A stretch of DNA of 64,000 nt from Nitrospira sp. (GCA_024331095.1 JANDJE010000003.1:99768-163767), one strand, 5' to 3'; positions 44,781-59,010 are shown, counted from the first letter of the stretch. Translations and numbers: made by a program. Notes: generated by a model from the sequence alone, not told the origin.

Positions 44781-45494
44781 ATGGATTGGCTGCGGGAGTC
44801 CGGATTTTTTGGCACCCATGCCACGGTGGGGGCGGACTTGAGCCAATTGATGGCGACGCTCTTTACCGTTTTGTTCATTGTCGGATGGGCGCAGGCTCGC
44901 AAGCAACACACCGATGCTCACCACTGGTTGATGTTGGGCGGCATGGTCTCCATGGCCGGTTTCTTTGTGGTCTATTATCTGTTCCGCCAGCTCGGCGTCT
45001 TGGCGTTCGAGGGGAAAGAAGGATTCGGCGGTTCTCAGGAACTGTACGACCGCGTGTTCGTCCCCGTGCTGATCCTTCACATTACCCTCGTCATCGTCGG
45101 TCTCATCATGGCGGTGTATCTCATCGTCCTCGGCTTTCGAGTCCAAACGTTTGTCGGCGGGAAACGGCGGCTGAAAGCCGGCCCCAGGCAAGCCTCATGG
45201 GGTGCGATCGCCAAGCTGTGGACCGCCGTCGGCGGCTTGATAGGAACGTATCTTCTCTATCTGCACCTGACAGACCGCCTTTCAATGCGGAGGTCCAGTG
45301 TCTGGATCGCGTTTATGCTCATCTTTACGGTGGTGTTGCTGATGGAGATGGCGATTCAACGGATATGGCCGGACGGAGCTCAGCGACATCGGGCGTTGGG
45401 TCGATTCACCATGATAATCTACTGCGTGCTGTTCATGACCGGGAGCTTCACCTACACGATGCTGTACATTCTCTATCCGGGAAAAATCGGGTGA
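44781..45494 (+). CDS. DUF420-like membrane protein
   Basis: A 237-residue protein with about six transmembrane helices (MATLFTVLFIVGWAQ, LMLGGMVSMAGFFVVYYLF, VFVPVLILHITLVIVGLIMAVYLIVLG, and others). The pattern of HTDAHHWLMLGG after helix 1, and LILHITLVI, fits DUF420 proteins. Some family members (CtaM) take part in cytochrome oxidase assembly. The bd-like oxidase genes that follow in the same direction make an oxidase-related role plausible, but this is inference. Confidence 0.7.
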   Translation: MDWLRESGFFGTHATVGADLSQLMATLFTVLFIVGWAQARKQHTDAHHWLMLGGMVSMAGFFVVYYLFRQLGVLAFEGKEGFGGSQELYDRVFVPVLILHITLVIVGLIMAVYLIVLGFRVQTFVGGKRRLKAGPRQASWGAIAKLWTAVGGLIGTYLLYLHLTDRLSMRRSSVWIAFMLIFTVVLLMEMAIQRIWPDGAQRHRALGRFTMIIYCVLFMTGSFTYTMLYILYPGKIG

Positions 45495-45603: not shown

Positions 45604-46098
45604 ATGTTGACCTGCGGCTGTGGGCGGTGGATGCATACGGAGGGGATCGAGGAACGGGCTTGCGAAGACGGAGCGGCCCAGTGGTTTATTCGGTCCGAAT
45701 GTCGTGGGTGCGGACTGAAGGTGGGCGTTGATGTGCCGGCGGGTAACATCGGCGGATTGGTCGATCGATTGATGTGGACGGACGAGGCGCTGCATCGGTT
45801 GGACCGAATGCCGCCGTACCTGGCATCACTCGTTCGGCAGGAAGCGGAAGAGCGGGCCAGAGCCAGAGAAACAAGGGTTGTTACTTACGACTTGCTGCTC
45901 CATCTCTCGTCCGAAGAACGGATCGAGTGGGAACCGGAAGCGGAACGGCGATTGGAAAAAGTGCCGGCCGCCGTGCGAGCGATGGCGAAGATTGAGCTGG
46001 AACGGACGGCGGTCGATCGCGGGATGACTGCCGTGACCGTGTCGCTGATGGAAGAGGTCAAAGCGAAGTATTTTGGAATGGGAGCTCAGCGGACGTAG
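45604..46098 (+). CDS. Zinc-ribbon-like protein with PCP_red domain (protochlorophyllide-reductase-57kD-subunit-like)
   Basis: A 164-residue protein. The N-terminus has CGCGRWMH and a later SECRGCG, suggesting a zinc ribbon. The C-terminus is WEPEAERRLEKVPAAVRAMAKIELERTAVDRGMTAVTVSLMEEVKAKYFGM, which closely matches the PCP_red domain found at the end of BchB/ChlB. Such domains also occur alone in non-photosynthetic bacteria. Its role here is unknown; a redox or cofactor-related function is inferred from its position between the DUF420 gene and the oxidase locus. Confidence 0.8.
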   Translation: MLTCGCGRWMHTEGIEERACEDGAAQWFIRSECRGCGLKVGVDVPAGNIGGLVDRLMWTDEALHRLDRMPPYLASLVRQEAEERARARETRVVTYDLLLHLSSEERIEWEPEAERRLEKVPAAVRAMAKIELERTAVDRGMTAVTVSLMEEVKAKYFGMGAQRT

Positions 46099-46189
46099 GA
46101 AACGGAGACGTCGCGCGGAAACGTGCGACCCAACGTACGACTCATGGCCCGCTTCTCTCCTCACACTTCACATTCGTCGGGGGAAGTTG

Positions 46190-47242
46190 ATGTTGCATCG
46201 GATGGCTTTGCGAGTGCTTCCCAGCTTGAGCCTGGCTGTGACGGAGGCATCCGTCCGAAAACGGAAACGCCTGATCATGCTTGTGCCGGGCTTGATCGCC
46301 TTCGCGGTGTATCGTGTGGTCAAACACCTGGTGTCGATTGCGGAGCCGCTGACGTTGCTCTCGTTAAGCAGTCTGATCGCGATGGCAACGGCCTTGTTCG
46401 CTTACCGGATCGGGCGATCCGCCTCCTGGGGGGTGATTGCCCGCCAAGACGGCGGACGTGTTCTCGCGTGGATGGCTTTCTGGATCGGAGCGGTCTACGG
46501 CGCGCAGCTCTCGCTGCTGGTGTTGGCGCTGTTGGGGATGGTGGGCTACGACTATCTGCAACATCCGGATGGTCCAGCCATGATGGCGATCATGGTGGCT
46601 TGCACGTCGGTCGCGCGGGATGCGTTCGAAATCGGCCATGTGCGCCGGCTGGCCGCAATGGGCAGACCGTTTCCCACGTTCCCCGACGGAGCGCCGTTGC
46701 GAGACATGATAAGGAGCCGCGCGGCTCAAGTCGGTCCCTGGGTGGCGGCCGGATCGGTGATCGGTGCGGCGGCCGCGTCCCTCGATCACGTGGTCATGGG
46801 ACAGCAGGCGATCATCGTGCAATTGCTCGCCGTGACGGTGTTGGGAGGTGCGATCACCTTGTGCGCCTATTTCGGCGGTATGGGCGGACGCGCCTCATGG
46901 ACGGCGAGATTTTCCGCGACAAGCGCATCCGAACTCTTCAAGTATTGGTGGTGGCCGGGGCTTGCGTTTTCGTCCACCTATTATTTGGTCGCGGCGGGCG
47001 TCGGCCTGTTTGTCGTGCAATGGCCGACCATGGCCCCCGGTTTTCCCGTCGCCGGCGGAGGATTCGTGGGCGGAATGATGGCGCTCTACGGATACTACTT
47101 GGGATATCGCCGGCATGTGGAAGAGCAACAGGGACAAAGAATCGATGAAGCCCTGCTCCGGTGTCCGTTTGTGATGGGCATTCTTGGAAAAGCACAACAT
47201 GTGAGCACGCCGATGCCGACTGTTCCTGGATCAAAGGTGTAG
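46190..47242 (+). CDS. Polytopic membrane protein of unknown function
   Basis: 350 residues from the ATG at 46190 (GGGGGAAG upstream); the track ORF adds an unlikely basic leader. About seven or eight transmembrane helices are visible (LIMLVPGLIAFAVYRVVKHLV, LTLLSLSSLIAMATALFAYRIG, VLAWMAFWIGAVYGAQLSLLVLALLGMVG, AAGSVIGAAAASLDHVVM, and others). I do not recognise a family. It ends one base before the first bd-like oxidase gene and must be part of the same transcript, so it is a candidate partner subunit of that oxidase. Confidence 0.7.
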   Translation: MLHRMALRVLPSLSLAVTEASVRKRKRLIMLVPGLIAFAVYRVVKHLVSIAEPLTLLSLSSLIAMATALFAYRIGRSASWGVIARQDGGRVLAWMAFWIGAVYGAQLSLLVLALLGMVGYDYLQHPDGPAMMAIMVACTSVARDAFEIGHVRRLAAMGRPFPTFPDGAPLRDMIRSRAAQVGPWVAAGSVIGAAAASLDHVVMGQQAIIVQLLAVTVLGGAITLCAYFGGMGGRASWTARFSATSASELFKYWWWPGLAFSSTYYLVAAGVGLFVVQWPTMAPGFPVAGGGFVGGMMALYGYYLGYRRHVEEQQGQRIDEALLRCPFVMGILGKAQHVSTPMPTVPGSKV

Positions 47243-47243
47243 C

Positions 47244-49124
47244 ATGGTTGTTCGGGATCGTTTGCGACGAGAGAAACGAGCGGCACTCAAATTGATGGGG
47301 ATCATTGCGACACTGATCGCCTTGCTGGGGTTCGTCGGCATGGAAGGGGCTTCTTTGGCCGAGGAGTCGCTGGACGTCTATTTCAACACGCCCGGCGCGC
47401 CGCAAGGTCCCGCCGCGCCCGCGCCTCATGAAACGGCGTACCCGCAGATCGGCTCATTCGACAGCCGGGCGTTGGTGTGGTTTGTGACTCAGCAGCACAC
47501 GTATTTCGGCGGGTTCGTGCTGGCGCTGCCGCTCTTTTGTGCCTTGCTGGAATTTCTGGGATTGATGACCTCCAAACCGGCGTTGTCGCTCAGATATGAC
47601 GGGTTGGCGAGGGATCTGGCGAAGGTGGCGGTGTTGGCGCTCTCCGTGACCGCCGTCATCGGAAGTCTGATGCTCGCGATGTTTATCGGGTTGTATCCGA
47701 GCTTCATGACCTACATGGGCGGAACCTTCAAATCGTTTATGCCGGCTTATGCCGCCGTGTTCGTGGTCGAGTCCGTGCTCCTGATCATTTATTACTATAG
47801 TTGGGACCGGATGACCGAGCGGGGCATGAAATGGGTGCACGCGGCCATTGGGGTGGCGACGAACATCGTGGGGACCGCCCTGTTGCTGCTGGCGAATGCC
47901 TGGTCGGCGTTCATGATGGCGCCGGCGGGCGTGGATGCTCAAGGCCGGTTTCTTGGGAACGGGTGGCATCTGCTGCATTCCGTCCTCTGGAATCCGCTCA
48001 ACGTGCATCGGTTTCTGGCCGACATCATGTCCGGCGGGGCGGTCGTGTTGGCGTACGCCTGCTACCGGTTCTTTACCGCCAAGACGATAGAGGAACGCGC
48101 CTACTTCGATTGGGTGGGGTACGTTTTTCTCTTCGTGACGGTGTGTGCGTTGGTGCCCATGCCGATCGCCGGGTATTGGCTGATGCGGTCGGTCTTCGCG
48201 TTTCGGCAAACCATGGGCGTGACCATGATGGGGGGGCTGCTGACGTGGATGTTTGTCGTGCAGGCGTTGCTGATCGGGGCTCTCTTTCTGGGCATCAATT
48301 ATTACATCTGGCAAGGCATGGCGCGGCTGAAGGGGGCGGAACGGTATCAACCATATTACCAATTGGTGTTCGGCGGTCTTCTACTGGCGTTGTTCATATG
48401 GTTGACTCCTCATACGCTGCTCATGTCTGCGGGAGAGGTGAAGGCGATGGGCGGCGCGCAGCATCCGGTCATCGGAAACTATGGAGTCATGTCGTCCAAG
48501 AACGGAGCCATCAACGTCATTTTGCTCTGCACCGCTCTCAGTTTCTTGTACATGCGACGGGCGAATCGGACCATGACGGTGCCGTGGGTCACGACGGGTA
48601 ATGTGGTGATTGCGGTGCTGTTTGCGGTCGGTCTCGTGAACGTCGTGGGACTGTCGATTTACGGGTTCTACGTGCCGGCGAACGTTCGCGTGGGATTATC
48701 GGCGCCGCAAGCCTTCACGACTTTTACGGTCATCGTCGTCGGGCTGTTAATCAATCGTGCCATGCTGAAGCGGTCGATCGTTCACGGGCCGATTCAATGG
48801 GGAAAAATTCCGGCGCGCGGCATGGTCGTGCTGTTCGCCATGGCGGCGGCCTTCAGTTGGGTGATGGGGCTGATGGGCTATATTCGCTCATCCGGACGGT
48901 TGGCGTGGCACGTGAGCGAAGTGATGGCCGACGTGTCGCCCTGGGCGTTCACTCCCGACCTGGCGTTCGCCGCGAAAATGGTGACGTTGAACATGGTGGT
49001 CTTTTGGGGGGCGGTGCTGGTTCTTTTTTGGATGTGTCAATGGGGTCGGCGACCGGTGATGGGCGAAGAACGTCATAATACGAATGCGCCGCTGTTGTCG
49101 CCGGTTTCTTCACCGGAAGCCTGA
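47244..49124 (+). CDS. bd-like quinol oxidase subunit I (paralog 1)
   Basis: A 626-residue membrane protein. It has an N-terminal membrane segment and a Pro/Ala-rich periplasmic stretch, then the CydA-like core: SRALVWFVTQQHTYFGGFVLALPLF (His 85, equivalent to the haem b595 ligand), VFVVESVLLIIYYYSWDRM, and WVHAAIGVATNIVGTALLLLANAWSAFMMAPAGV, like the haem b558 region of cytochrome bd. It is paralogous to the gene at 52707. No CydB-like gene follows. It should reduce O2 (or carry out a related reaction) using quinol or an unknown donor in the cytoplasmic membrane. Such divergent bd-like oxidases are known from Nitrospira. Confidence 0.85.
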   Translation: MVVRDRLRREKRAALKLMGIIATLIALLGFVGMEGASLAEESLDVYFNTPGAPQGPAAPAPHETAYPQIGSFDSRALVWFVTQQHTYFGGFVLALPLFCALLEFLGLMTSKPALSLRYDGLARDLAKVAVLALSVTAVIGSLMLAMFIGLYPSFMTYMGGTFKSFMPAYAAVFVVESVLLIIYYYSWDRMTERGMKWVHAAIGVATNIVGTALLLLANAWSAFMMAPAGVDAQGRFLGNGWHLLHSVLWNPLNVHRFLADIMSGGAVVLAYACYRFFTAKTIEERAYFDWVGYVFLFVTVCALVPMPIAGYWLMRSVFAFRQTMGVTMMGGLLTWMFVVQALLIGALFLGINYYIWQGMARLKGAERYQPYYQLVFGGLLLALFIWLTPHTLLMSAGEVKAMGGAQHPVIGNYGVMSSKNGAINVILLCTALSFLYMRRANRTMTVPWVTTGNVVIAVLFAVGLVNVVGLSIYGFYVPANVRVGLSAPQAFTTFTVIVVGLLINRAMLKRSIVHGPIQWGKIPARGMVVLFAMAAAFSWVMGLMGYIRSSGRLAWHVSEVMADVSPWAFTPDLAFAAKMVTLNMVVFWGAVLVLFWMCQWGRRPVMGEERHNTNAPLLSPVSSPEA

Positions 49125-49829: not shown

Positions 49830-50213
49830 ATGAATCAGCGACTCCGAGCGATGCCGATGGGGAAAGTTCTGGACATTCTTCTGGGGATGACGGTGATGGG
49901 GACCGTCGGAACTCTGATCGGGATGGTCATGGGATGGGGAGCGTTGCCCCTTGCCGTGTTGATCGGGTTGTTGCTGGGCGGTGTCGTCGGGTTTTTGGGC
50001 GGCCGCCGGTTTCTTGTGAGCATTATGACGGGAACGCTACTGGGAGGAGCGCTGGCGTGGTTGGTAGCGGATGTTGAGAGGATTTGGGTGGGCGCGGGCG
50101 CGGGCGCCGCGATGGGCGGATTCCTCGGTGTCCAAGTGTCGATGCTGCTGGATTTTCGTGCGGCCAGGAAGGCTTCGTCCGATCGCACCGAGCCGTCGGC
50201 GCCGCAACCGTAA
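49830..50213 (+). CDS. Small Gly-rich membrane protein
   Basis: A 127-residue protein with about four closely packed, glycine-rich hydrophobic segments ([40 protein letters not shown], and others), the last followed by a soluble tail. No family recognised. Starts 25 bases after the DUF3047 stop and overlaps nothing, in line with the oxidase gene block. Confidence 0.6.
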
Positions 50214-50230
50214 ACGGCGAGGGAAATGGC

Positions 50231-51151
50231 GTGGAAAACAGAGGCGTGTTGTATGGATCGATCATTTTTGTCTTTGCGTCGTTTTTTGGATTGATCGGCA
50301 TGCTGGTCTATGAATCGTACAAGGCGAGCAAGCTCAAAGAACTTGCGAAATCCGTGACATCCGAAACTCAGTCCGCGGCGCCAAAAGCGATGCCCCAAGA
50401 CTATTCGATGTACAAAACGAAAATCGGCGATGAGGGGCGTGAAATGGTGCAGATTCCCGAAGGGCCGTTCACCATGGGGAGTAACGACGGTGATCCGGAT
50501 GAAGCCCCTGAACACCAAGTGTTCTTAAAGGGGTTCTATATTGACTTGAGGGAAGTGACGCAGGCGGAATACATGCGATTCGCCAAAATGACGAAGCGCC
50601 CGATGCCGAGAATCGAAGTGTTCGAGGACGACCAATCCAAGCTGCTTCAGCCCGAGTTCGCCGCCATGAGCGTCTCTTGGAGCGACGCGGCGGCCTATTG
50701 CAAGTGGGCCGGCAAGCGCCTGCCTACGGAGGCGGAATGGGAAAAGGCGGGACGAGGCGAGGGGAAAAGGAAGTATGCCTGGGGCGATAAGTTTGCTCCG
50801 GAGCATGCCAATTTGGACGGGAGCGAAGACGGTTATAAATATCTTGCCCCTCCCGGCTCGTTTGAGTCGGGGCGGAGTCCGTACGGGCTGTATGATATGA
50901 CCGGCAACGTCGCGGAGTGGGTGGCCGATTCGTACGACGAGAACTATTACAAGAAATCGCCGTACCGCGACCCCAAAGGACCGGAAGACGGAGACCTCAA
51001 AGTGGTCCGCGGGGGATCGTGGCGAGAAACGACCCATAACGCGAGACTCTCCAAGCGATTTGCGGCAAAACACTGGCGTGCTGACATCACGATCGGGATC
51101 CGTTGCGCGGCGGATCTTGATCAGGAAAGCGGATCAGTTTCCGCTCCGTGA
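50231..51151 (+). CDS. Membrane-anchored FGE/SUMF1-fold protein 1, probably non-catalytic
   Basis: 306 residues from a GTG at 50231 (GAGGG upstream); the track start at 50084 overlaps the previous gene. One N-terminal membrane helix (GSIIFVFASFFGLIGMLVYESY) precedes a periplasmic FGE-sulfatase domain: MVQIPEGPFTMGSNDGDPDEAPEHQVFLKGFYIDLREVTQAEYMRF, KRLPTEAEWEKAGRG, YGLYDMTGNVAEWVADSY and VVRGGSW. The paired active-site cysteines of true formylglycine-generating enzymes are not in the expected C-terminal stretch, so sulfatase activation is unlikely. It resembles NirV-type accessory proteins. Confidence 0.83.
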   Translation: MENRGVLYGSIIFVFASFFGLIGMLVYESYKASKLKELAKSVTSETQSAAPKAMPQDYSMYKTKIGDEGREMVQIPEGPFTMGSNDGDPDEAPEHQVFLKGFYIDLREVTQAEYMRFAKMTKRPMPRIEVFEDDQSKLLQPEFAAMSVSWSDAAAYCKWAGKRLPTEAEWEKAGRGEGKRKYAWGDKFAPEHANLDGSEDGYKYLAPPGSFESGRSPYGLYDMTGNVAEWVADSYDENYYKKSPYRDPKGPEDGDLKVVRGGSWRETTHNARLSKRFAAKHWRADITIGIRCAADLDQESGSVSAP

Positions 51152-51158
51152 GGCGGGC

Positions 51159-52055
51159 ATGCTCGAGACCAAATTCAAAGTTGTTTTTTTGATCGTCGTG
51201 TTGATCTGCGCCGCTCTTCCCATAGCGGGCATTATGAAGGGGACGACGTTGACGCCTTACGAAGAGCCGGTTGGAGAAGCGACCACAATAGTTGAACCGG
51301 AGGTCGACAATGTATCCGAGGAAGAGCCGATTGAAGAAGAGATGGTGAGGATCCCGGCGGGACCGTTTATCCGGGGCACCGAGAGCGGGGGGTTTGACGA
51401 GCAACCACAACGAGCGGTCTATCTGGAGGAGTTTTTCATCGATCGATACGAAGTGACCAACGCGCAGTATCAACAATTCGTTCTGGCGACCGGACATCGG
51501 AAACCGGGTTTGCCGGCACGGTATGCCAAGAGCGGCGGAAAAATGAAGGGGCCCAATCAACCAGTGGTGTACGTCTCTTGGGAGGATGCGGACGCGTATT
51601 GCCGATGGAAGGGAAAGCGTCTTCCGACGGAGGCAGAGTGGGAAAAGGCCATGCGCGGCAGTGATGGGAGACTTTGGCCCTGGGGGAATAATGAATTGCC
51701 CAATGGCGCAAACTGGGCTCGAGTGCAGGACAGATACGAGGTGTCCGCCCCGGTAGGCAGTTTCAAAACGGACCACAGCCCTTACGGAGTCATGGATGGA
51801 GCGGGCAATGTGATGGAGTGGGTCGCCGATTGGTACCAGGAAACATATTATAGAGATTCGCCAGACAAGAACCCTACAGGACCGGAGTATGGAACCTATC
51901 GGGTACTTCGAGGGGGAGGGTACACGACCACCGGAGCCGACATCCGTATTACGAGTCGAAGCAAAATGATGCCTGATTTTCGGGATGAGACGATAGGATT
52001 TCGCTGTGCAACGTCAGAAATTTCGGGAAATGAGCGGGTCAATGAAAAGACTTGA
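51159..52055 (+). CDS. Membrane-anchored FGE/SUMF1-fold protein 2, probably non-catalytic
   Basis: 298 residues from the ATG at 51159, seven bases after the first FGE-like gene. An N-terminal anchor (KVVFLIVVLICAALPIAGIM) and an acidic linker (EPEVDNVSEEEPIEEE) precede the FGE fold: MVRIPAGPFIRGTESGGFDEQPQRAVYLEEFFIDRYEVTNAQYQQF, KRLPTEAEWEKAMRG, YGVMDGAGNVMEWVADWY and VLRGGGY. As in its neighbour, the catalytic Cys pair is missing and only the late GFRC cysteine remains. It is a diverged tandem copy of the previous gene; a structural role with the oxidase or cytochromes is inferred. Confidence 0.83.
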   Translation: MLETKFKVVFLIVVLICAALPIAGIMKGTTLTPYEEPVGEATTIVEPEVDNVSEEEPIEEEMVRIPAGPFIRGTESGGFDEQPQRAVYLEEFFIDRYEVTNAQYQQFVLATGHRKPGLPARYAKSGGKMKGPNQPVVYVSWEDADAYCRWKGKRLPTEAEWEKAMRGSDGRLWPWGNNELPNGANWARVQDRYEVSAPVGSFKTDHSPYGVMDGAGNVMEWVADWYQETYYRDSPDKNPTGPEYGTYRVLRGGGYTTTGADIRITSRSKMMPDFRDETIGFRCATSEISGNERVNEKT

Positions 52056-52057
52056 TG

Positions 52058-52162
52058 CTAAAGAAAATCGAAGTAATACAAGATCAAAAACACGGCCAAA
52101 ATGATGTTGACAACCATTCCAGCCAAAACTATAATGTCAAACACTTTTGCATTTTTCGACAT
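52058..52162 (-). CDS. Very small membrane protein (34 aa), unannotated type
   Basis: Found by reading the minus strand; too short for the ORF track. ATG at 52162 with GCAAGGA upstream, then MSKNAKVFDIIVLAGMVVNIILAVFLILYYFDFL and a stop. It is a single transmembrane helix. A good promoter (52211-52239) reads toward it, which is the best evidence that it is expressed. It faces the end of the second FGE-like gene. Size and type recall small oxidase subunits such as CydX, but no similarity can be claimed. Confidence 0.5.
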   Translation of the reverse strand: MSKNAKVFDIIVLAGMVVNIILAVFLILYYFDFL

Positions 52163-52210
52163 GATTTTTTCCTTGCAAATTCAAAATTTCACACCGCATT
52201 CGCGAGGAGT

Positions 52211-52239
52211 TGATTAACACAGGGTCACCTCTCTGTCAA
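52211..52239 (-). promoter_or_regulatory. Promoter for the 34-aa membrane protein gene
   Basis: On the minus strand TTGACA, 17 bases, TAATCA, about 50 bases upstream of the ATG at 52162. Perfect -35 and acceptable -10. Confidence 0.5.
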
Positions 52240-52292
52240 GAAACACAAGGCCGGTCATTCATTCCTTTTGATCAAGAACAAGGAGCTATGGG

Positions 52293-52418
52293 ATGGCAGA
52301 GGCAGCACAGCAGGATAGCGATATTAAAATCAAAATCGGCAAAATGATTTTTTACATCACCTGTGCGGTTGGGCTATGGTTTTTTTACTGGTTCGCGGGT
52401 ATTCAGTGTCCCTGCTAA
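52293..52418 (+). CDS. Very small membrane protein (41 aa) upstream of the second bd-like oxidase
   Basis: ATG at 52293 with AAGGAG upstream; reads MAEAAQQDSDIKIKIGKMIFYITCAVGLWFFYWFAGIQCPC and stop. A polar N-terminus is followed by one hydrophobic helix and a C-terminal CPC. Too short for the track. It lies upstream of the 43-aa gene and the oxidase in the same direction, so a role as a small oxidase subunit or assembly factor is plausible but unproven. Confidence 0.55.
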   Translation: MAEAAQQDSDIKIKIGKMIFYITCAVGLWFFYWFAGIQCPC

Positions 52419-52499
52419 ACGGGCGGGAGTATCAGGCGAAGTTGTGGGCCCGGCTGATATTGGTGAAACCGATGGAGAAGTAAAGAAAAGAGGAAGGAC

Positions 52500-52631
52500 A
52501 TGAGCGCACTAAATAATCCGGTCATTGCGGTAATTGTGTCGCTGGTCATCGCGGTGGGGTACTTTACGTTGGTTGATCACTACTTGATGGAGATGCAAGG
52601 GTTGGATTTTTGGTATCTCTTCCGCCAATAG
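52500..52631 (+). CDS. Very small membrane protein (43 aa) upstream of the second bd-like oxidase
   Basis: ATG at 52500 with AGGAAGGA upstream; reads MSALNNPVIAVIVSLVIAVGYFTLVDHYLMEMQGLDFWYLFRQ and stop. One transmembrane helix near the N-terminus, then an aromatic-rich end. Too short for the track. Lies 75 bases before the oxidase start, which has its own AAGGAGG. Candidate CydX-like small subunit, by size and context only. Confidence 0.55.
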   Translation: MSALNNPVIAVIVSLVIAVGYFTLVDHYLMEMQGLDFWYLFRQ

Positions 52632-52706
52632 GCTGACTTGACTTGAATGGAAGTGAAGCGAAGACGAGATCGCAAAGTAATTGTCCTGCTTTAAGGAGGT
52701 ATTTTC

Positions 52707-54623
52707 ATGGGTGTCGTAACCCGGAAGAAGTTATTCTCGACCATTGCGCTGGGCGCGATGGTTGTTGCTCTTCTGCTTCCGATCGTTATGGCGCTTCCAT
52801 CGCCGGCTACAGGTGAAGAGGCTCCAGTTGCCGAGGGGGCGCAGAAGGAAGGTGAAAAAGTTGAGAAGGCGAGGGATGTCTACTATAAGACCGAAGGTAT
52901 TGTAGTCGGTGCTCCTGCTCCTAAGACGACGGATGGCCCTGCCGATTATCCGCGATACAACTTTGAAAGCCGGGTCTTGCTCTGGTTTGCCAACCAGCAG
53001 CATCTTTACTATGGAAGCTTTGTTCTTGCCGTCCCAATTTTTTGCATGATCATTGAATTCATGGGGGTGGTTACGAAGGATAAGGCGCTCGCCAAGCGAT
53101 ATGATCAGTTGGCGTATGACTTTATTAAGATCAGTCTGACCGCCTATTCGTTGACGGCCATCCTGGGCGGAATTCTTATTTTTACTTTTCTGACGCTATA
53201 TCCGACCTTTTTCTCGTACCTATCAAGTATTTTCCGCCCGGTGATGCATATCTATGCCTTGATGTTCGTTGCGGAAAGTGGAACCCTCTATATTTACTAT
53301 TATGGTTGGGACAAAATGAAAGAGGGTTTTTTGAAGTGGATCCATTTGAGCATGTCCGTCATTCTGAATGTGATCGGGACGCTGCTCATGTTTCTGGCGA
53401 ATTCGTGGATCGGCTTCATGATGTCGCCTGCCGGTGTTGATGAGCAGGGCCGCTATCTGGGGAACATTTGGCACGTCATTCATACCGCTTTGTGGAATCC
53501 GCTGAACCTCCACCGCATTCTTGGCAACATGGCGTTCGGGGGTGGCGTGGTGGCTGCCTATGCAGCCTATAAATTCCTGGCTGCAAAAACGGATGAAGAG
53601 CGCGCTCATTATGATTGGATGGGTTATATCGCGATGGCGCTCGGAGTGGCGTTTCTCATTCCTCTTCCATTTGCCGGCTACTGGCTGATGAGGGAAGTAT
53701 ATGCTTACAGGCAGCAAATGGGGATTACGCTTATGGGCGGTCTCTTGGCTTGGCTGTTTATTATTCAGGCTACGATGATCGGGATCTTGTTTTTGAGTAC
53801 CAATTATTATTTGTGGCAAGCGATGGGCCGTATGCGAGGAGCCGAGAAGTATCAACGGTATATTAAGTACCTGGTCTTTTTGTTGGCGTGCGGATTCATG
53901 GTCTTTATTACTCCGCATACCATGGTGATGACGCCAGCCGAATTGAAGGCGATGGGAGGGCAGCAGCATCCGGTTCTGGGCAATTATGGTGTCATGTCGG
54001 CGAAAAATGGAGGCATCAACGTTATTATTACGACTACAGTGCTGAGCTTTGTCTGGTACATGAGAGGAAATAAGGTTTCAACTGTATCGTGGGCAAGGTT
54101 CGGCAATATCTTTATGGGAGTGTTTTTTGCCTGTGCGTATATAAACATCATATTCCTTGCCATTTATGGCTATTACATTCCGGCGAATGTTCGTGTCGGT
54201 CTCTCTGTGCCTCAAGTTGCAACGACTCTTTCGTGCCTCTTTTTCATGTTTACCCTCAACAGCATGATGATGAAGGGGGCCAAGCAGATGGGCCCGATCG
54301 AATGGGGGAAAATTTCAGCCCGTTCTCAGTATGCGCTCATCATGCTGGCAACCGCCTTTACTTGGATGATGGGGTTGATGGGCTATATTCGTTCATCGGT
54401 TCGTCTTTTTTGGCATGTCAATGAAATTATGCGGGACAACTCTCCGTGGGCCTATACTCATACGGTAGGGTTTGCTGCCAATGTGATTTCGGCCAACGTT
54501 CTGTTTTTCTGGATCAGTATTCTCTTTGTCTTCTGGCTCGGTAGTTTGACGGCAAAGAAGGCTCCTGTTGAGTCGAAAGTTGGGGTTCCTGGAGCTATTC
54601 CGCAGCCGGCTGGAAGTCATTGA
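52707..54623 (+). CDS. bd-like quinol oxidase subunit I (paralog 2)
   Basis: A 638-residue membrane protein with TAAGGAGG seven bases upstream. An N-terminal membrane segment is followed by a charged periplasmic stretch (EEAPVAEGAQKEGEKVEKARD), then the CydA-like core: SRVLLWFANQQHLYYGSFVLAVPIF (His 99), LMFVAESGTLYIYYYGWDKM, WIHLSMSVILNVIGTLLMFLANSWIGFMMSPAGV, and the long run of helices to the C-terminus. It is clearly similar to the gene at 47244 along the whole length. No CydB follows; c-type cytochromes come instead. Codon use is more AT-rich than in the first copy. Confidence 0.88.
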   Translation: MGVVTRKKLFSTIALGAMVVALLLPIVMALPSPATGEEAPVAEGAQKEGEKVEKARDVYYKTEGIVVGAPAPKTTDGPADYPRYNFESRVLLWFANQQHLYYGSFVLAVPIFCMIIEFMGVVTKDKALAKRYDQLAYDFIKISLTAYSLTAILGGILIFTFLTLYPTFFSYLSSIFRPVMHIYALMFVAESGTLYIYYYGWDKMKEGFLKWIHLSMSVILNVIGTLLMFLANSWIGFMMSPAGVDEQGRYLGNIWHVIHTALWNPLNLHRILGNMAFGGGVVAAYAAYKFLAAKTDEERAHYDWMGYIAMALGVAFLIPLPFAGYWLMREVYAYRQQMGITLMGGLLAWLFIIQATMIGILFLSTNYYLWQAMGRMRGAEKYQRYIKYLVFLLACGFMVFITPHTMVMTPAELKAMGGQQHPVLGNYGVMSAKNGGINVIITTTVLSFVWYMRGNKVSTVSWARFGNIFMGVFFACAYINIIFLAIYGYYIPANVRVGLSVPQVATTLSCLFFMFTLNSMMMKGAKQMGPIEWGKISARSQYALIMLATAFTWMMGLMGYIRSSVRLFWHVNEIMRDNSPWAYTHTVGFAANVISANVLFFWISILFVFWLGSLTAKKAPVESKVGVPGAIPQPAGSH

Positions 54624-54709
54624 TGGACTTTTATCTAAGGATCGGCTTTGTGAGAAAAGGAACGGCGTCGCAGCTCTTTTTCTTGTAAAGCGGTAGGAGG
54701 GTTAGCACC

Positions 54710-56023
54710 TTGGGTAATTTGATTGCTGAGGCATTTTCAATGGGTTGGATGGCGATTGCCATCCTGGCTGGGCTTCTTGTCTATTTTCAGGTATCGATCA
54801 GTGATCCTTCAGCCAAGAAACGAGCTGTTTTTAAAACGTTTATCGGGATCATTTCGACTTTCCTCTTATTTGTGGCAATCGCCAACTATAAGACCAATTT
54901 TTATGGAGAGAGCAGGCTGTTGCCTGTTTCTCTCGTCATGATTACCGCCACGTCCTTTATTATGGCTTTGTACTTCACCAATCTGAGCGCGTTGCTCAAG
55001 ATCGGTGGGTTTATGTTCTTTGTTGCGGCGTTTTTGTCCGGATATGGAAATTGGCTTCCTCAGGTGGAGGGAGGGTTTCCTCCGGTAGAGGAAAAGCTTG
55101 ATTTTAATTCCATGACGGCTCAACAGTTGGCTGATGAAGGGGAAAAGATTATTTTTGGAGGAATCGGAAAAAATAAAGAGCAAGGAGCCATTGGTAAAGG
55201 GCAGTGTCCCTTGTGCCATGCCTTCCATGCCGGGATGTTGGGAGAGCGTGCTCCAAATTTGCTCGGATTGGTTAATCGCTCCAAGGAGCGGTTGGAAGAT
55301 CCCAAGTACTCTAAGGGGAATCCTGCTAAACGAGACTATGCAGTAAAAGAAGCTTTCCCTGGATCTGGAACGGCTGAGAACGCTCAAGAGTATATTGCAG
55401 AGTCGCACGCTTGTCCGAGCTGTTACGTGGTCGCAGGGTATGGGGTGAAGGGGACGAATGATAGAGAGAGTCCCATGCCAGCCATTCATAAGCCGCCAAT
55501 TTCTTTGAGCCTTCCAGAATTGGCGGCTGTTGATACGTGGATGTATGTGCGGGAAGGGTTGGAGCCTCCTTCTTTTGAAGAAATAGTCAAGTCCTATGAA
55601 AAATTTATTCCTGAAGGGGATCGCCCGCAACTTCAGGAGGATAAGCCAGCAGGAGGGGGAGCGACATCATTAATGGCAGATGGTTCAGAGCCTGTTGATC
55701 AAATTTTTGCCAAAGCTCAATGTGTCGCATGTCACACCATACCCGGTATTCCCGGGGCTGTTGGCACTATCGGCCCGAAGCTTGAGGAAGGAACGACGGC
55801 CGCTCAGCGTATCAAGGCACCGGATTACAAGGGGACAGCCAAGTCGCCGGCCGAATATATTATGGAATCGATTGTTGATCCAAGTGCATACGTCGTCAAG
55901 CCGTTTCCTGACAACACCATGCCTAAAGTATTCGGTCAAAAATTGAGTGCCGGGGCTCTTAAGAAAATTGTGGATTATCTTTCCCAAGTCAAAGTGGGAG
56001 CACCGCCACCAAAAATTTCATAG
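54710..56023 (+). CDS. Membrane-anchored di-haem cytochrome c
   Basis: 437 residues starting at a TTG, chosen because TAGGAGGG lies nine bases upstream; an ATG at 54740 is the alternative. Residues 11-115 hold about four transmembrane helices (WMAIAILAGLLVYFQ, FKTFIGIISTFLLFVAIANY, LPVSLVMITATSFIMALYFT, IGGFMFFVAAFLSGYG). The periplasmic part has two haem c motifs, CPLCH (166-170) and CVACH (338-342). A third cysteine pair CPSCY (235-239) has Tyr where His would be, so it does not look like a haem site. It probably carries electrons for the oxidase and NxrC-like protein encoded around it. Confidence 0.87.
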   Translation: MGNLIAEAFSMGWMAIAILAGLLVYFQVSISDPSAKKRAVFKTFIGIISTFLLFVAIANYKTNFYGESRLLPVSLVMITATSFIMALYFTNLSALLKIGGFMFFVAAFLSGYGNWLPQVEGGFPPVEEKLDFNSMTAQQLADEGEKIIFGGIGKNKEQGAIGKGQCPLCHAFHAGMLGERAPNLLGLVNRSKERLEDPKYSKGNPAKRDYAVKEAFPGSGTAENAQEYIAESHACPSCYVVAGYGVKGTNDRESPMPAIHKPPISLSLPELAAVDTWMYVREGLEPPSFEEIVKSYEKFIPEGDRPQLQEDKPAGGGATSLMADGSEPVDQIFAKAQCVACHTIPGIPGAVGTIGPKLEEGTTAAQRIKAPDYKGTAKSPAEYIMESIVDPSAYVVKPFPDNTMPKVFGQKLSAGALKKIVDYLSQVKVGAPPPKIS

Positions 56024-56071
56024 ACTAGTTAGAGTCCATATTTTTGTTTGAGAGTGTAAAGGGAGTAAGCG

Positions 56072-57109
56072 ATGAAAGCACTGATGTCGCTCGGCGCCTT
56101 AGTGGGGGTTGTCGGTTTGCTGCTGCTGGCTGGAATGATATTCGATGTTATTCCTTCGAATACCATTCGTCTTGTCGAAGGGTACATGCCAATGCAGATG
56201 CTCTTCGAGGTCGGGTGCTACGTTCTTGGATTTACCGGCTTAAGCTATATGCTCAATGCGATGGGAATGGGAATTCCAAGATTCTGGCAAGGTATTGGAT
56301 TTTGGATATTTTTCCTTCTCTATATCAAGTACAGAGTTTATCCCCCCATTCCGTTCAGCGTTCGGGCCATGTATGGCACGGTGGGGCTTGTCGCCGTTCT
56401 TATGTGGGTTTCTGCGAATGAAGAAGATTGGAAAAAGTTCAAACAGCCTATCTTGAACGTCTTGGATGCGCAAACCGGGTTTAATAAAGTGCTTCGATAC
56501 GTTTATTTGATCGCTCTTCCGATTCTCACGTGGGGTTTTTCTTACAACGTTATGATGCCGAAATCGGAAGAACCGATTGAGTTGAGAACTGTGCATCCTG
56601 CTCCGCCTGCCAGTACCAAAGTGCATGGCAAGACGTATGTATTGCAAACCTCTTTGAATCCCTATCGTGTAAACACGGAAGGCAAATACGATCAGGAATA
56701 TAGCAATTCGCTCATTGTTGAGCAGGGCATGGGGCGGCTCATGAAGCCGAATGCCAATCCTTGGGATGAAAAAGCTGAAGGATACTTAAAGTATGTTCGT
56801 GAAGGCGGAGAAATCTTTTTCCAAAATTGCCACTTCTGTCATGGTGATAATTTAAACGGCCGTGGTCTTCACGCTTTTGCCTTTAATCCCATTCCCGCGA
56901 ATTTCACTGATCCAGGGACAATTGCCCAGTTGCAGGAGACGTTTATCTTCTGGCGTGTCGCAAAAGGTGGAATGGGGCTTCCGAATGAAGGGTTCCCATG
57001 GGCATCCGTCATGCCGCCTTGGGAGCAGCATTTGACGGCTGATGAAATGTGGAAAGTCATTCTGTTTGAATATTGGCATACTGGGTATTATCCGCGAACC
57101 TGGGATTGA
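56072..57109 (+). CDS. Membrane-anchored mono-haem cytochrome c
   Basis: 345 residues; AAGGGAG precedes the ATG at 56072. About four to five transmembrane helices occupy residues 1-160 (LGALVGVVGLLLLAGMIF, MLFEVGCYVLGFTGLSYML, WQGIGFWIFFLLYIKY, YGTVGLVAVLMWVS, YVYLIALPILTWGFS). A periplasmic cytochrome c domain carries CHFCH at 253-257, with a likely Met ligand in SVMPPWEQ. Starts 48 bases after the di-haem cytochrome and is co-transcribed with it. Likely links the oxidase with periplasmic electron carriers. Confidence 0.87.
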   Translation: MKALMSLGALVGVVGLLLLAGMIFDVIPSNTIRLVEGYMPMQMLFEVGCYVLGFTGLSYMLNAMGMGIPRFWQGIGFWIFFLLYIKYRVYPPIPFSVRAMYGTVGLVAVLMWVSANEEDWKKFKQPILNVLDAQTGFNKVLRYVYLIALPILTWGFSYNVMMPKSEEPIELRTVHPAPPASTKVHGKTYVLQTSLNPYRVNTEGKYDQEYSNSLIVEQGMGRLMKPNANPWDEKAEGYLKYVREGGEIFFQNCHFCHGDNLNGRGLHAFAFNPIPANFTDPGTIAQLQETFIFWRVAKGGMGLPNEGFPWASVMPPWEQHLTADEMWKVILFEYWHTGYYPRTWD

Positions 57110-57155
57110 TCGTATTTCAGATTTGTTCATTTCTTCATTAAGGAAGAGGAACGCT

Positions 57156-58931
57156 ATGCAAAACAGTGGAACTCAGAAGGCGGGTCTGACACTGTCAATT
57201 GCCTTCGGGGCCGTGTTAATTACCGTTGGTATGGAAATTCCGGCTTTTGCTCAAGGGGGAATCCCTGAAGGTTTTAAAAAAGGAGAACTGGCGGCACCGC
57301 CCTCCGCTGAAATGATTGAGGCCGGTAAACGGGTCTATTTTACAAAGTGCGTGTGGTGTCATGGTGTTGATGGTGCGGGGGATGGGCCTGGTGCCGATCG
57401 GCTCTGGCCGCGCCCGCGTAATTTTAATCAGGGAACGTTCAAAATTCGTCATACAGCCAGCGGTGAGCTTCCACTGTTTGATGCTAAAAAGCCTGTTCGC
57501 GGTCAGAATGACCTTTTCGATACTGTGACCCATGGGTTGCCTGGATCGGCTATGCCGCCCTGGGAAGGTATCTTGACCGAGGAACAACGACTCCAAGTGC
57601 TGGCTTTCGTTACAACTCAGCTCGTGAAAGATAGGAGCTTTACGGACAAGCAGTCGGAGACCCAAACCATTCTGAACATGGCGGAGCTGAAGCCCAAATC
57701 AGCAACGGAAGAAAGCATCAAAAGAGGATCCGAACTGATTGTTGAAAAAAAATGCATTGAATGCCATGGTCTTGAGGGCCGTGGTGATGGAAATGCGTTC
57801 AATTTGAAAGACGATTGGGGATTCTCCATTCAGCCAGCCAATTGGCATAAATGCTGGAACTTTAGAGGAAGCAGGCAGGACCCTTACAACGTAGTCAATA
57901 TTTTCAGGACTTTCTCGACAGGGATCAACGGAACTCCCATGCCGTCCTTTGCGGACAATACCACGATAGATGAGCGATGGGATATTGCCAATTTTGTGAA
58001 TTCCCTGTGCGAGCGGGATGAAGAGGGGAAGCCTCTTTCTATTGATCCTTTAACCGATAAGCCCAAGATCAATTTTGTGATCCCCTCGAATATGGTGGAG
58101 GGGGACATTCCGGCCGATATTGAGAATGAAGCGTGGAAAAATGCACCGCGTCGCTATGTCGCAATGGGCGGGCAAATTACCCATAAGCCAAGAAATTTTG
58201 TGAATCGAATTGACGACATCTGGGTTCGGTCTTTGTACAACGACAAGTCCATTGCCTATCTCTTGGAATGGGATGACCGGACAAAAAGCGTGGCCGAGGG
58301 CAAGCTGCCCTGGGCTCCAACGGAAGTCAACATTGATATTCAGGAACAAGAGCCTTCCACTGGAGAAGGGGGTTCCATCGCGGCAAAGCAAAATAACTAT
58401 CCCGTCTATAACGACGCCATCGCCATTGAAACTCCCGTCAAATGGAAGGAACTGCCGGCTCCAATTAAGCCGCGCTATTTGTTTGGAACGAACGAGCAGT
58501 TTCCGGTCGATATTGTGAAGTGGGAAGCCGATGGCTCCATTAGGGCCTTTAAAGGAACCGGATGGGACAAGGACTTTGAGGAGCGCGATAACTATGAGGA
58601 GCATCTGAAAGTCCTGAAAAGCGAATGGAAGAATGGTCGTTGGTACGTGATGATCGAACGCCCCCTGGGAAATAAGAAAGACCAGGATTATGACGAAGAC
58701 ACGTTTTTTGAGGTCGGCCAATATATTCCCACGGTCTTCTTCGCATGGGATGGCCATAATGGTGATGCGGGTCGAAAGATGGCCGTGTCGGCTTTTTATT
58801 ACACATTTATGAATCCTCCGATTCCCCAAGAGACTTATATTTATCCTGTTGTCATTGCCGTTGGCGTTGTGTTTCTGGAAGGGTGGGTCTTGACTCGCCG
58901 CGCTAACAAGAAGAAGGGGAAAACCCTATAA
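57156..58931 (+). CDS. Fused di-haem cytochrome c / EB_dh-type haem b protein (NxrC-like), membrane-anchored
   Basis: 591 residues from the ATG at 57156 (GAGGAACGCT upstream); the track start at 57042 is too early. After a signal peptide (SIAFGAVLITVGMEIPAFAQ), two cytochrome c modules carry CVWCH (65-69) with Met in SAMPPWEG, and CIECH (200-204) with Met in TPMPSFAD. From about residue 320 the chain is the ethylbenzene-dehydrogenase gamma-like haem b fold: WKNAPRRYVAMGGQITHKPRNFVNRIDDIWVRSLYNDKSIAYLLEWDD and further. A C-terminal helix (TYIYPVVIAVGVVFLEGWVLT) anchors it. The EB_dh fold is shared with NxrC of nitrite oxidoreductase; the fused haem c modules and oxidase context are notable. 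Confidence 0.85.
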   Translation: MQNSGTQKAGLTLSIAFGAVLITVGMEIPAFAQGGIPEGFKKGELAAPPSAEMIEAGKRVYFTKCVWCHGVDGAGDGPGADRLWPRPRNFNQGTFKIRHTASGELPLFDAKKPVRGQNDLFDTVTHGLPGSAMPPWEGILTEEQRLQVLAFVTTQLVKDRSFTDKQSETQTILNMAELKPKSATEESIKRGSELIVEKKCIECHGLEGRGDGNAFNLKDDWGFSIQPANWHKCWNFRGSRQDPYNVVNIFRTFSTGINGTPMPSFADNTTIDERWDIANFVNSLCERDEEGKPLSIDPLTDKPKINFVIPSNMVEGDIPADIENEAWKNAPRRYVAMGGQITHKPRNFVNRIDDIWVRSLYNDKSIAYLLEWDDRTKSVAEGKLPWAPTEVNIDIQEQEPSTGEGGSIAAKQNNYPVYNDAIAIETPVKWKELPAPIKPRYLFGTNEQFPVDIVKWEADGSIRAFKGTGWDKDFEERDNYEEHLKVLKSEWKNGRWYVMIERPLGNKKDQDYDEDTFFEVGQYIPTVFFAWDGHNGDAGRKMAVSAFYYTFMNPPIPQETYIYPVVIAVGVVFLEGWVLTRRANKKKGKTL

Positions 58932-58971
58932 TAGGCTACAGGTCAGACATCACGTAAATAGTGGCAGTGAG

Positions 58972-59010
58972 AGAGGGGGTGGGGTTTCCTCACCCCCTCT
59001 TTGTTTTTTC
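58972..59010 (+). terminator. Rho-independent terminator closing the oxidase-cytochrome cluster
   Basis: AGAGGGGGTG / CACCCCCTCT stem, extended by a few inner pairs, followed by TTGTTTTTT. It lies about 40 bases after the NxrC-like stop. Confidence 0.9.

Follow-up and report, generated by a model that had tools for sequence, protein, structure and literature searches.

Nitrospira is a major nitrite oxidiser, and the terminal part of its electron path has so far been undefined biochemically. In N. moscoviensis, a cluster has been described that encodes a bd-like oxidase, two membrane c-type cytochromes and a diheme alt_NxrC with a transmembrane (TM) helix (PMC6606698). A homologous cluster has been noted in Nitrospina and Kuenenia, in passages that also document the absence of CydB and of the quinol-site residues in this type of protein and the replacement of its Q-loop by helices (PMC3578206). 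In Kuenenia, kustd1712-1709 encode a cydA-like, a diheme, a monoheme and a diheme protein, in the order found here, and the module of this anammox bacterium lies within the nxr cluster itself (PMC6423088, PMC11791136). The OR-N branch of the bd superfamily, as presented in passages of two further papers, comprises CydA-like proteins in which the quinol site is absent and for which cytochrome c donors are presumed (PMC10839748, PMC12342949), traits shared by the protein considered here. Judged by its published description, TO_1 of Mn-oxidising Nitrospirota likewise combines a bd-like oxidase with a cytochrome b subunit in the periplasm, and is common to other Nitrospirota (PMC9040806). The anammox ETM module (kuste2855-2856) is a different system.

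The locus and its CydA-like core

The window, i.e. the whole 64-kb stretch of DNA analysed, belongs to a Nitrospira MAG (2.64-Mb assembly, 80% complete), and the closest named contigs to its own come from Nitrospira sp. MAGs. A preliminary description had singled out an AT-richer module (52293-58931, + strand) with two tiny membrane proteins, a CydA-like protein, two membrane cytochromes c and a fused haem c/EB_dh protein, all in one direction and closed by a strong terminator. Gene calls and domain searches confirmed every one of these genes (Table 1), and the terminator was the strongest in a 15-kb scan. The GC content is about 48% in this segment as against 57-60% outside; recent horizontal transfer is not favoured as the cause, the GC content of the segment being below that of the flanks also in the other Nitrospira loci for which it was measured.

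Content and order are those of the bd-like_3/alt_nxrC_2 cluster of Nitrospira. On sequence grounds, the module is the 'bd-like_3 + two cytochromes + alt_NxrC_2' of N. moscoviensis, and hence already known; the core protein of that species is 92% identical to bd-like_3, and a second bd-like gene is found nearby there too. What appears to be new is the constant company of three tiny membrane proteins, T1, T2 and T3, and a promoter lying antisense inside one of them. No description of either was found in open-access paper passages or in Pfam/NCBIfam, and both are unmentioned in the passages of the N. moscoviensis cluster account (PMC6606698); reference-genome annotation may list some of the small genes. 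T3, the second CydA-like gene bd-like_4, two SUMF/FGE-like genes and a DUF420 gene did not figure in the preliminary description.

Table 1. Features in and around the bd-like_3/alt_nxrC_2 cluster, in window coordinates.
Feature	Position	Strand	Properties
DUF420 membrane protein	44781-45494	+	PF04238 1e-19
bd-like_4, second CydA-like protein	47244-49124	+	~50% identical to bd-like_3
Two SUMF/FGE-like membrane-anchored proteins	50084-51151, 51060-52055	+	FGE-sulfatase 4e-57, 4e-61
T3	52058-52162	-	34 aa, 1 TM, MSKNAKVFDIIVLAGMVVNIILAVFLILYYFDFL; divergent from operon
Perfect sigma-70 promoter sequence TTGACA-N17-TATAAT	52107-52135	+	antisense inside T3
T1	52293-52418	+	41 aa, 1 TM, ends ..GIQCPC; no Pfam/NCBIfam family
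T2	52500-52631	+	43 aa, 1 TM; profile match just upstream of bd-like_3
bd-like_3, CydA-like core (OR-N type)	52707-54623	+	Pfam Cyt_bd_oxida_I PF01654 1.6e-20
Membrane-anchored diheme cytochrome c	54710-56023	+	4 N-terminal TM; CPLCH, CVACH
Membrane-anchored monoheme cytochrome c	56072-57109	+	CHFCH
alt_NxrC_2, two c-type haem sites fused to EB_dh (haem b)	57156-58931	+	Cytochrom_C 4e-20, EB_dh 4e-11
Intrinsic terminator	58970-59002	+	15-pair stem, 9 GC pairs, T-run

The PF01654 match of bd-like_3, which spans its N-terminal half, is to the CydA domain of canonical quinol cytochrome bd, and CydA chains were also the best matches in a fold search, the query being a low-confidence model (51 rows, pLDDT 63, pTM 0.58) that is too poor for the placement of haem ligands. 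As the preliminary description had stated for the locus, there is no CydB (PF02322), and our search found none elsewhere in the 80% complete assembly. Since the assembly is incomplete to this extent and the canonical CydA it encodes (on C83) runs off a contig end, the canonical CydB may simply be missing from it. The lack of a CydB partner is in any case typical of OR-N proteins and not peculiar to this genome.

Alignment with E. coli CydA placed methionines at the quinol-site positions K252 and E257 of bd-like_3, so that the quinol site is lost. The equivalents of H19, H186, E107 and R448 are kept, in the same pattern as in bdY, a paralogue on another contig (C42), and M393 and E445 are replaced by Gly and Leu (the alignment at M393 being uncertain), so that the canonical set of haem ligands is incomplete. 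Among 62 OR-N proteins, the equivalents of H19 and H186 occur in nearly all (H186, misplaced by the global alignment of the 62, was equated with H269 in a separate one) and that of E107 in 57; K433, H213, R562 and H570 are invariant, and M393 and E445 are replaced. The ligands checked are mostly common to bd-like_3, bd-like_4 and bdY, and bdX, also on C42, is devoid of several; this conserved set does not separate O2 from other acceptors. Compared with E. coli CydABX, then, the CydA fold, the four residues and, in principle, a small single-TM partner are shared, whereas CydB and the Q-loop residues are absent, two ligands are replaced, c-type cytochromes are attached and T1-T3 gave no Pfam match above cut-off.

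With its CydA-like sequence, its lost quinol site, no CydB and adjoining c-type cytochrome genes, bd-like_3 has the features of an OR-N protein; OR-N1 and OR-N2 themselves are probably the proteins on C42. The idea of a non-canonical oxidase fed by c-type haems, put forward in the preliminary description, is sound; a bd-like complex of this kind, devoid of the quinol residues and with an EB_dh/NxrC-like subunit, is the accepted reading in the literature passages, and the idea is not new.

The C-terminal domain of the diheme cytochrome matches a solved diheme protein (7zs0, E 7e-10), which is probably Kustd1711 of Kuenenia. Translation of alt_NxrC_2 more likely starts at 57156 than at 57042, because the ATG there has a ribosome-binding site; the resulting protein (591 aa) has a signal peptide and a C-terminal TM segment, and the longer frame would overlap the preceding gene. 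Its EB_dh domain resembles the gamma subunits of NXR (DMSO_red_II_gam 3e-18, below the cut-off of that model) and, taken alone, gave no match in the PDB.

Three microproteins and a promoter sequence inside T3

None of the microproteins matched a Pfam family above cut-off, nor T1 or T2 one in NCBIfam, and none was assigned to a CydX- or CydH-type family. Of the 75 Nitrospira loci with enough upstream sequence, 74 had T3 and 72 had T2. Variation in T3 is biased to third codon positions (15/6/26), with 20060 synonymous against 7753 nonsynonymous pairwise codon differences, and stops interrupt its antisense frames in 66-71 of 71 sequences. T1 likewise varies mainly at third positions (27143 against 5310), and constraint is weaker on T2 (35367 against 33341).

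As the regular expressions that gathered T1-T3 were tuned over several runs until they matched, profile searches are the cleaner test. The profiles, for which 7-13 sequences were used (the window's being the single contribution from the genus Nitrospira), were run against 24,014 small ORFs. T1 was matched in 95 loci, T2 in 93 and T3 in 86, with one match per locus, T3 also in class- and phylum-level relatives; in this set, no match occurred at C42 (bdX/bdY), C28, C83 or other OR-N loci. Over 296 Nitrospirota genomes, the T2 profile gave a single match in each of 116, three of them marginal (E > 1e-3), hence in about 113. Strong matches that were compared with the survey of CydA-like proteins lie immediately upstream of bd-like_3; where a genome had only distant OR-N proteins, there was no match. 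These distributions are for Nitrospirota. Three small parts that are always beside the bd-like_3 cluster provide handles for purification and structure work.

The promoter sequence inside T3 is the single match to TTGACA-N17-TATAAT in the 64 kb (0.01 expected). It is invariant in all 74 loci with an aligned T3, and wherever it was found in the fetched loci there was one match, in the same place; one locus has it with no T3 nearby. The T3 codons whose third bases fall inside the hexamers (10, 11, 17 and 18) show no variation at all; among the remaining non-Met codons, just two are invariant. For this third-position invariance P = 0.0004, a value computed after the pattern had been seen, with codons taken as exchangeable and relatedness ignored. 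With a promoter lying inside an antisense microgene, the constraints on regulation and on coding overlap here with unusual clarity. In N. moscoviensis, according to transcriptomic passages, the cluster genes are among the 40 most strongly expressed (PMC6606698), which is in line with a perfect promoter.

In three phylum-level relatives (L137, L138, L140) the order is T3-T1-T2-core, all on one strand, and T3 was therefore probably inverted later. A conserved TTGACA...TGTTA motif upstream of T3 (52163-52292, minus strand), facing the opposite way, may be its own divergent promoter.

A putative cytochrome-c-fed complex and its alternatives

A bd-like match was found in every genome sampled from the genus, the family and the order, and the gene order bd-like - diheme c - monoheme c - alt_NxrC is kept at class level. 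Two relatives are of particular interest. In G131 (96% complete) and G273 (95%), bd-like_3 is the only PF01654 protein, the cluster is intact with T1-T3, and bd-like_4 is absent; neither genome has a COX1 (haem-copper oxidase) match over cut-off, G273 having one sub-threshold piece, or a clear NxrA, the TIGR03479 matches being weak only. Twelve class-level carriers (f4-f11) show no NxrA-like protein, their best matches having E values between 1e-8 and 1e-21, where most of the sampled Nitrospirales reach about 1e-56 or better; NxrA does not, then, always accompany the cluster. Taken together, these genomes speak against an obligate CydA' partner and against an obligatory anchoring of NXR.

We propose that the encoded proteins form one membrane complex. 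A CydA-like core needing no CydB would carry T1, T2 and T3 as single-pass micro-subunits, together with the two membrane-anchored cytochromes (2 + 1 c-type haems) and, in the periplasm, a diheme-c/haem-b protein that is anchored through its C-terminal helix. High-potential electrons would be delivered by a donor in the periplasm, namely nitrite by way of NXR in Nitrospira and different donors in its relatives, and would pass from the haems of alt_NxrC through the two cytochromes c to the haems of the core and on to O2. That there is one complex and that the microproteins belong to it is probable. The order conserved at class level and in Kuenenia, the occurrence of T1-T3 once per bd-like_3 locus, and the ligands kept while the quinol residues are lost speak for the proposal. 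To the statement as a whole, a cytochrome-c-fed complex with O2 as the acceptor, we assign a probability of roughly 0.45. We would advance only tentatively its fullest version, in which seven subunits, three of them obligate micro-subunits with a single TM pass, make up a cytochrome c oxidase of the bd superfamily that has no CydB, is ancestral to the Nitrospirota carriers and independent of NXR, and is driven by an operon promoter antisense in the gene of one of its own subunits.

An oxidase function is supported by G131 and G273, with bd-like_3 as the only CydA-like protein and no haem-copper oxidase over cut-off, and by the window's own assembly, in which no haem-copper oxidase was found either (80% complete). 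The two relatives favour this reading only if the organisms respire O2; superoxide dismutase (SOD) as an aerobic marker did not discriminate, the window's own assembly being without it too. Relatives of this kind, with a single CydA-like protein, offer a clean test of O2 reduction by such proteins. Against an oxidase stand the anammox homologue within the nxr cluster of Kuenenia, the loss of the E445 and M393 ligands, the other OR-N pair of Nitrospira on C42, and the several haem-copper oxidases of phylum-level carriers (f13/f18), where an additional oxidase would be redundant. The haem-copper oxidases of these carriers and the anammox homologue favour a non-oxidase role.

A close rival, and a possible one, is transport in the reverse direction, in which the pmf would drive high-potential electrons from cytochromes of the periplasm onto quinone and so serve CO2 fixation; the helices present in place of the Q-loop would then provide a new site for quinone. 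Such a function has been proposed for this cluster in passages of the literature (PMC6606698, PMC3578206), and high-potential donors are used by all the carriers that are NXR-linked, reportedly Mn-oxidising or anammox; the homologue in anammox bacteria and the retention of the cluster beside several haem-copper oxidases agree with it as well. Yet all known quinol-binding residues are lost, the new quinone site is putative, and G131 and G273 would be left with no recognised O2 reductase.

We also considered the possibility that T1-T3 are assembly factors or regulators rather than stable subunits, in keeping with the nearby SUMF and DUF420 genes, which could encode maturation factors. SUMF/FGE-like genes lie upstream of bd-like_3 in class-level relatives too (L173/L174), and at class level a homologue of the DUF420 protein is found downstream of alt_NxrC (BLASTP to the L173 gene: 43% identity, 3e-57). 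This role is doubtful in view of the single-TM size of T1-T3, their one copy per cluster with no independent occurrence in the profile searches, and the fact that bd oxidases usually have small single-TM subunits like CydX (annotated in E. coli). A modification of the CPC of T1 by SUMF was considered and dropped; SUMF genes are also present where T1 has no CPC.

Another proposal on composition is a CydAA' heterodimer with bd-like_4 in the place of CydB, for which a model exists in passages on OR-N1/OR-N2 (PMC10839748, PMC12342949). In most Nitrospira loci with enough flank, bd-like_4 is indeed found about 5.4 kb upstream of bd-like_3 on the same strand, a fixed synteny. We hold such a pairing to be unlikely, since bd-like_4 keeps all the ligands checked, unlike bdX, which lost some, lies outside the conserved operon, and is missing from G131 and G273, where bd-like_3 is alone. 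Like the assembly-factor proposal, it can be combined with either O2 reduction or reverse transport. Directly upstream of bd-like_4, at 46073-47242, lies a gene for a 389-aa membrane protein of no Pfam family.

That the complex serves mainly as a membrane anchor and electron entry point of NXR, through alt_NxrC_2, is improbable: the likeness of EB_dh to NXR gamma subunits, the clustering with NXR in Kuenenia and the high expression in N. moscoviensis speak for it, but the twelve class-level genomes carry the cluster with no NxrA-like protein, and its transcripts in N. moscoviensis are given as 2.5-4-fold below those of other NXR subunits (PMC6606698). The same relatives, in which the whole cluster is kept with no recognisable NxrA, limit the earlier suggestion of EB_dh as the link between a molybdoenzyme and the oxidase; this is plausible for nitrite oxidisers and is not a general role.

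Within the genus, one genome (G110; one contig, 99% complete) has bd-like_3 and T2 and no NxrA-like TIGR03479 match (best 3e-13); it is possibly a Nitrospira genome without NXR, or a miss of the search. The window's assembly encodes five CydA-like proteins in all: two in the window, one canonical CydA, and bdX and bdY, which have cytochromes, an EB_dh protein and a cytochrome b-like gene as their neighbours on C42 (8604-16183), a region that matches the published CIII_1/bd-like_1/bd-like_2/alt_nxrC_1 region.
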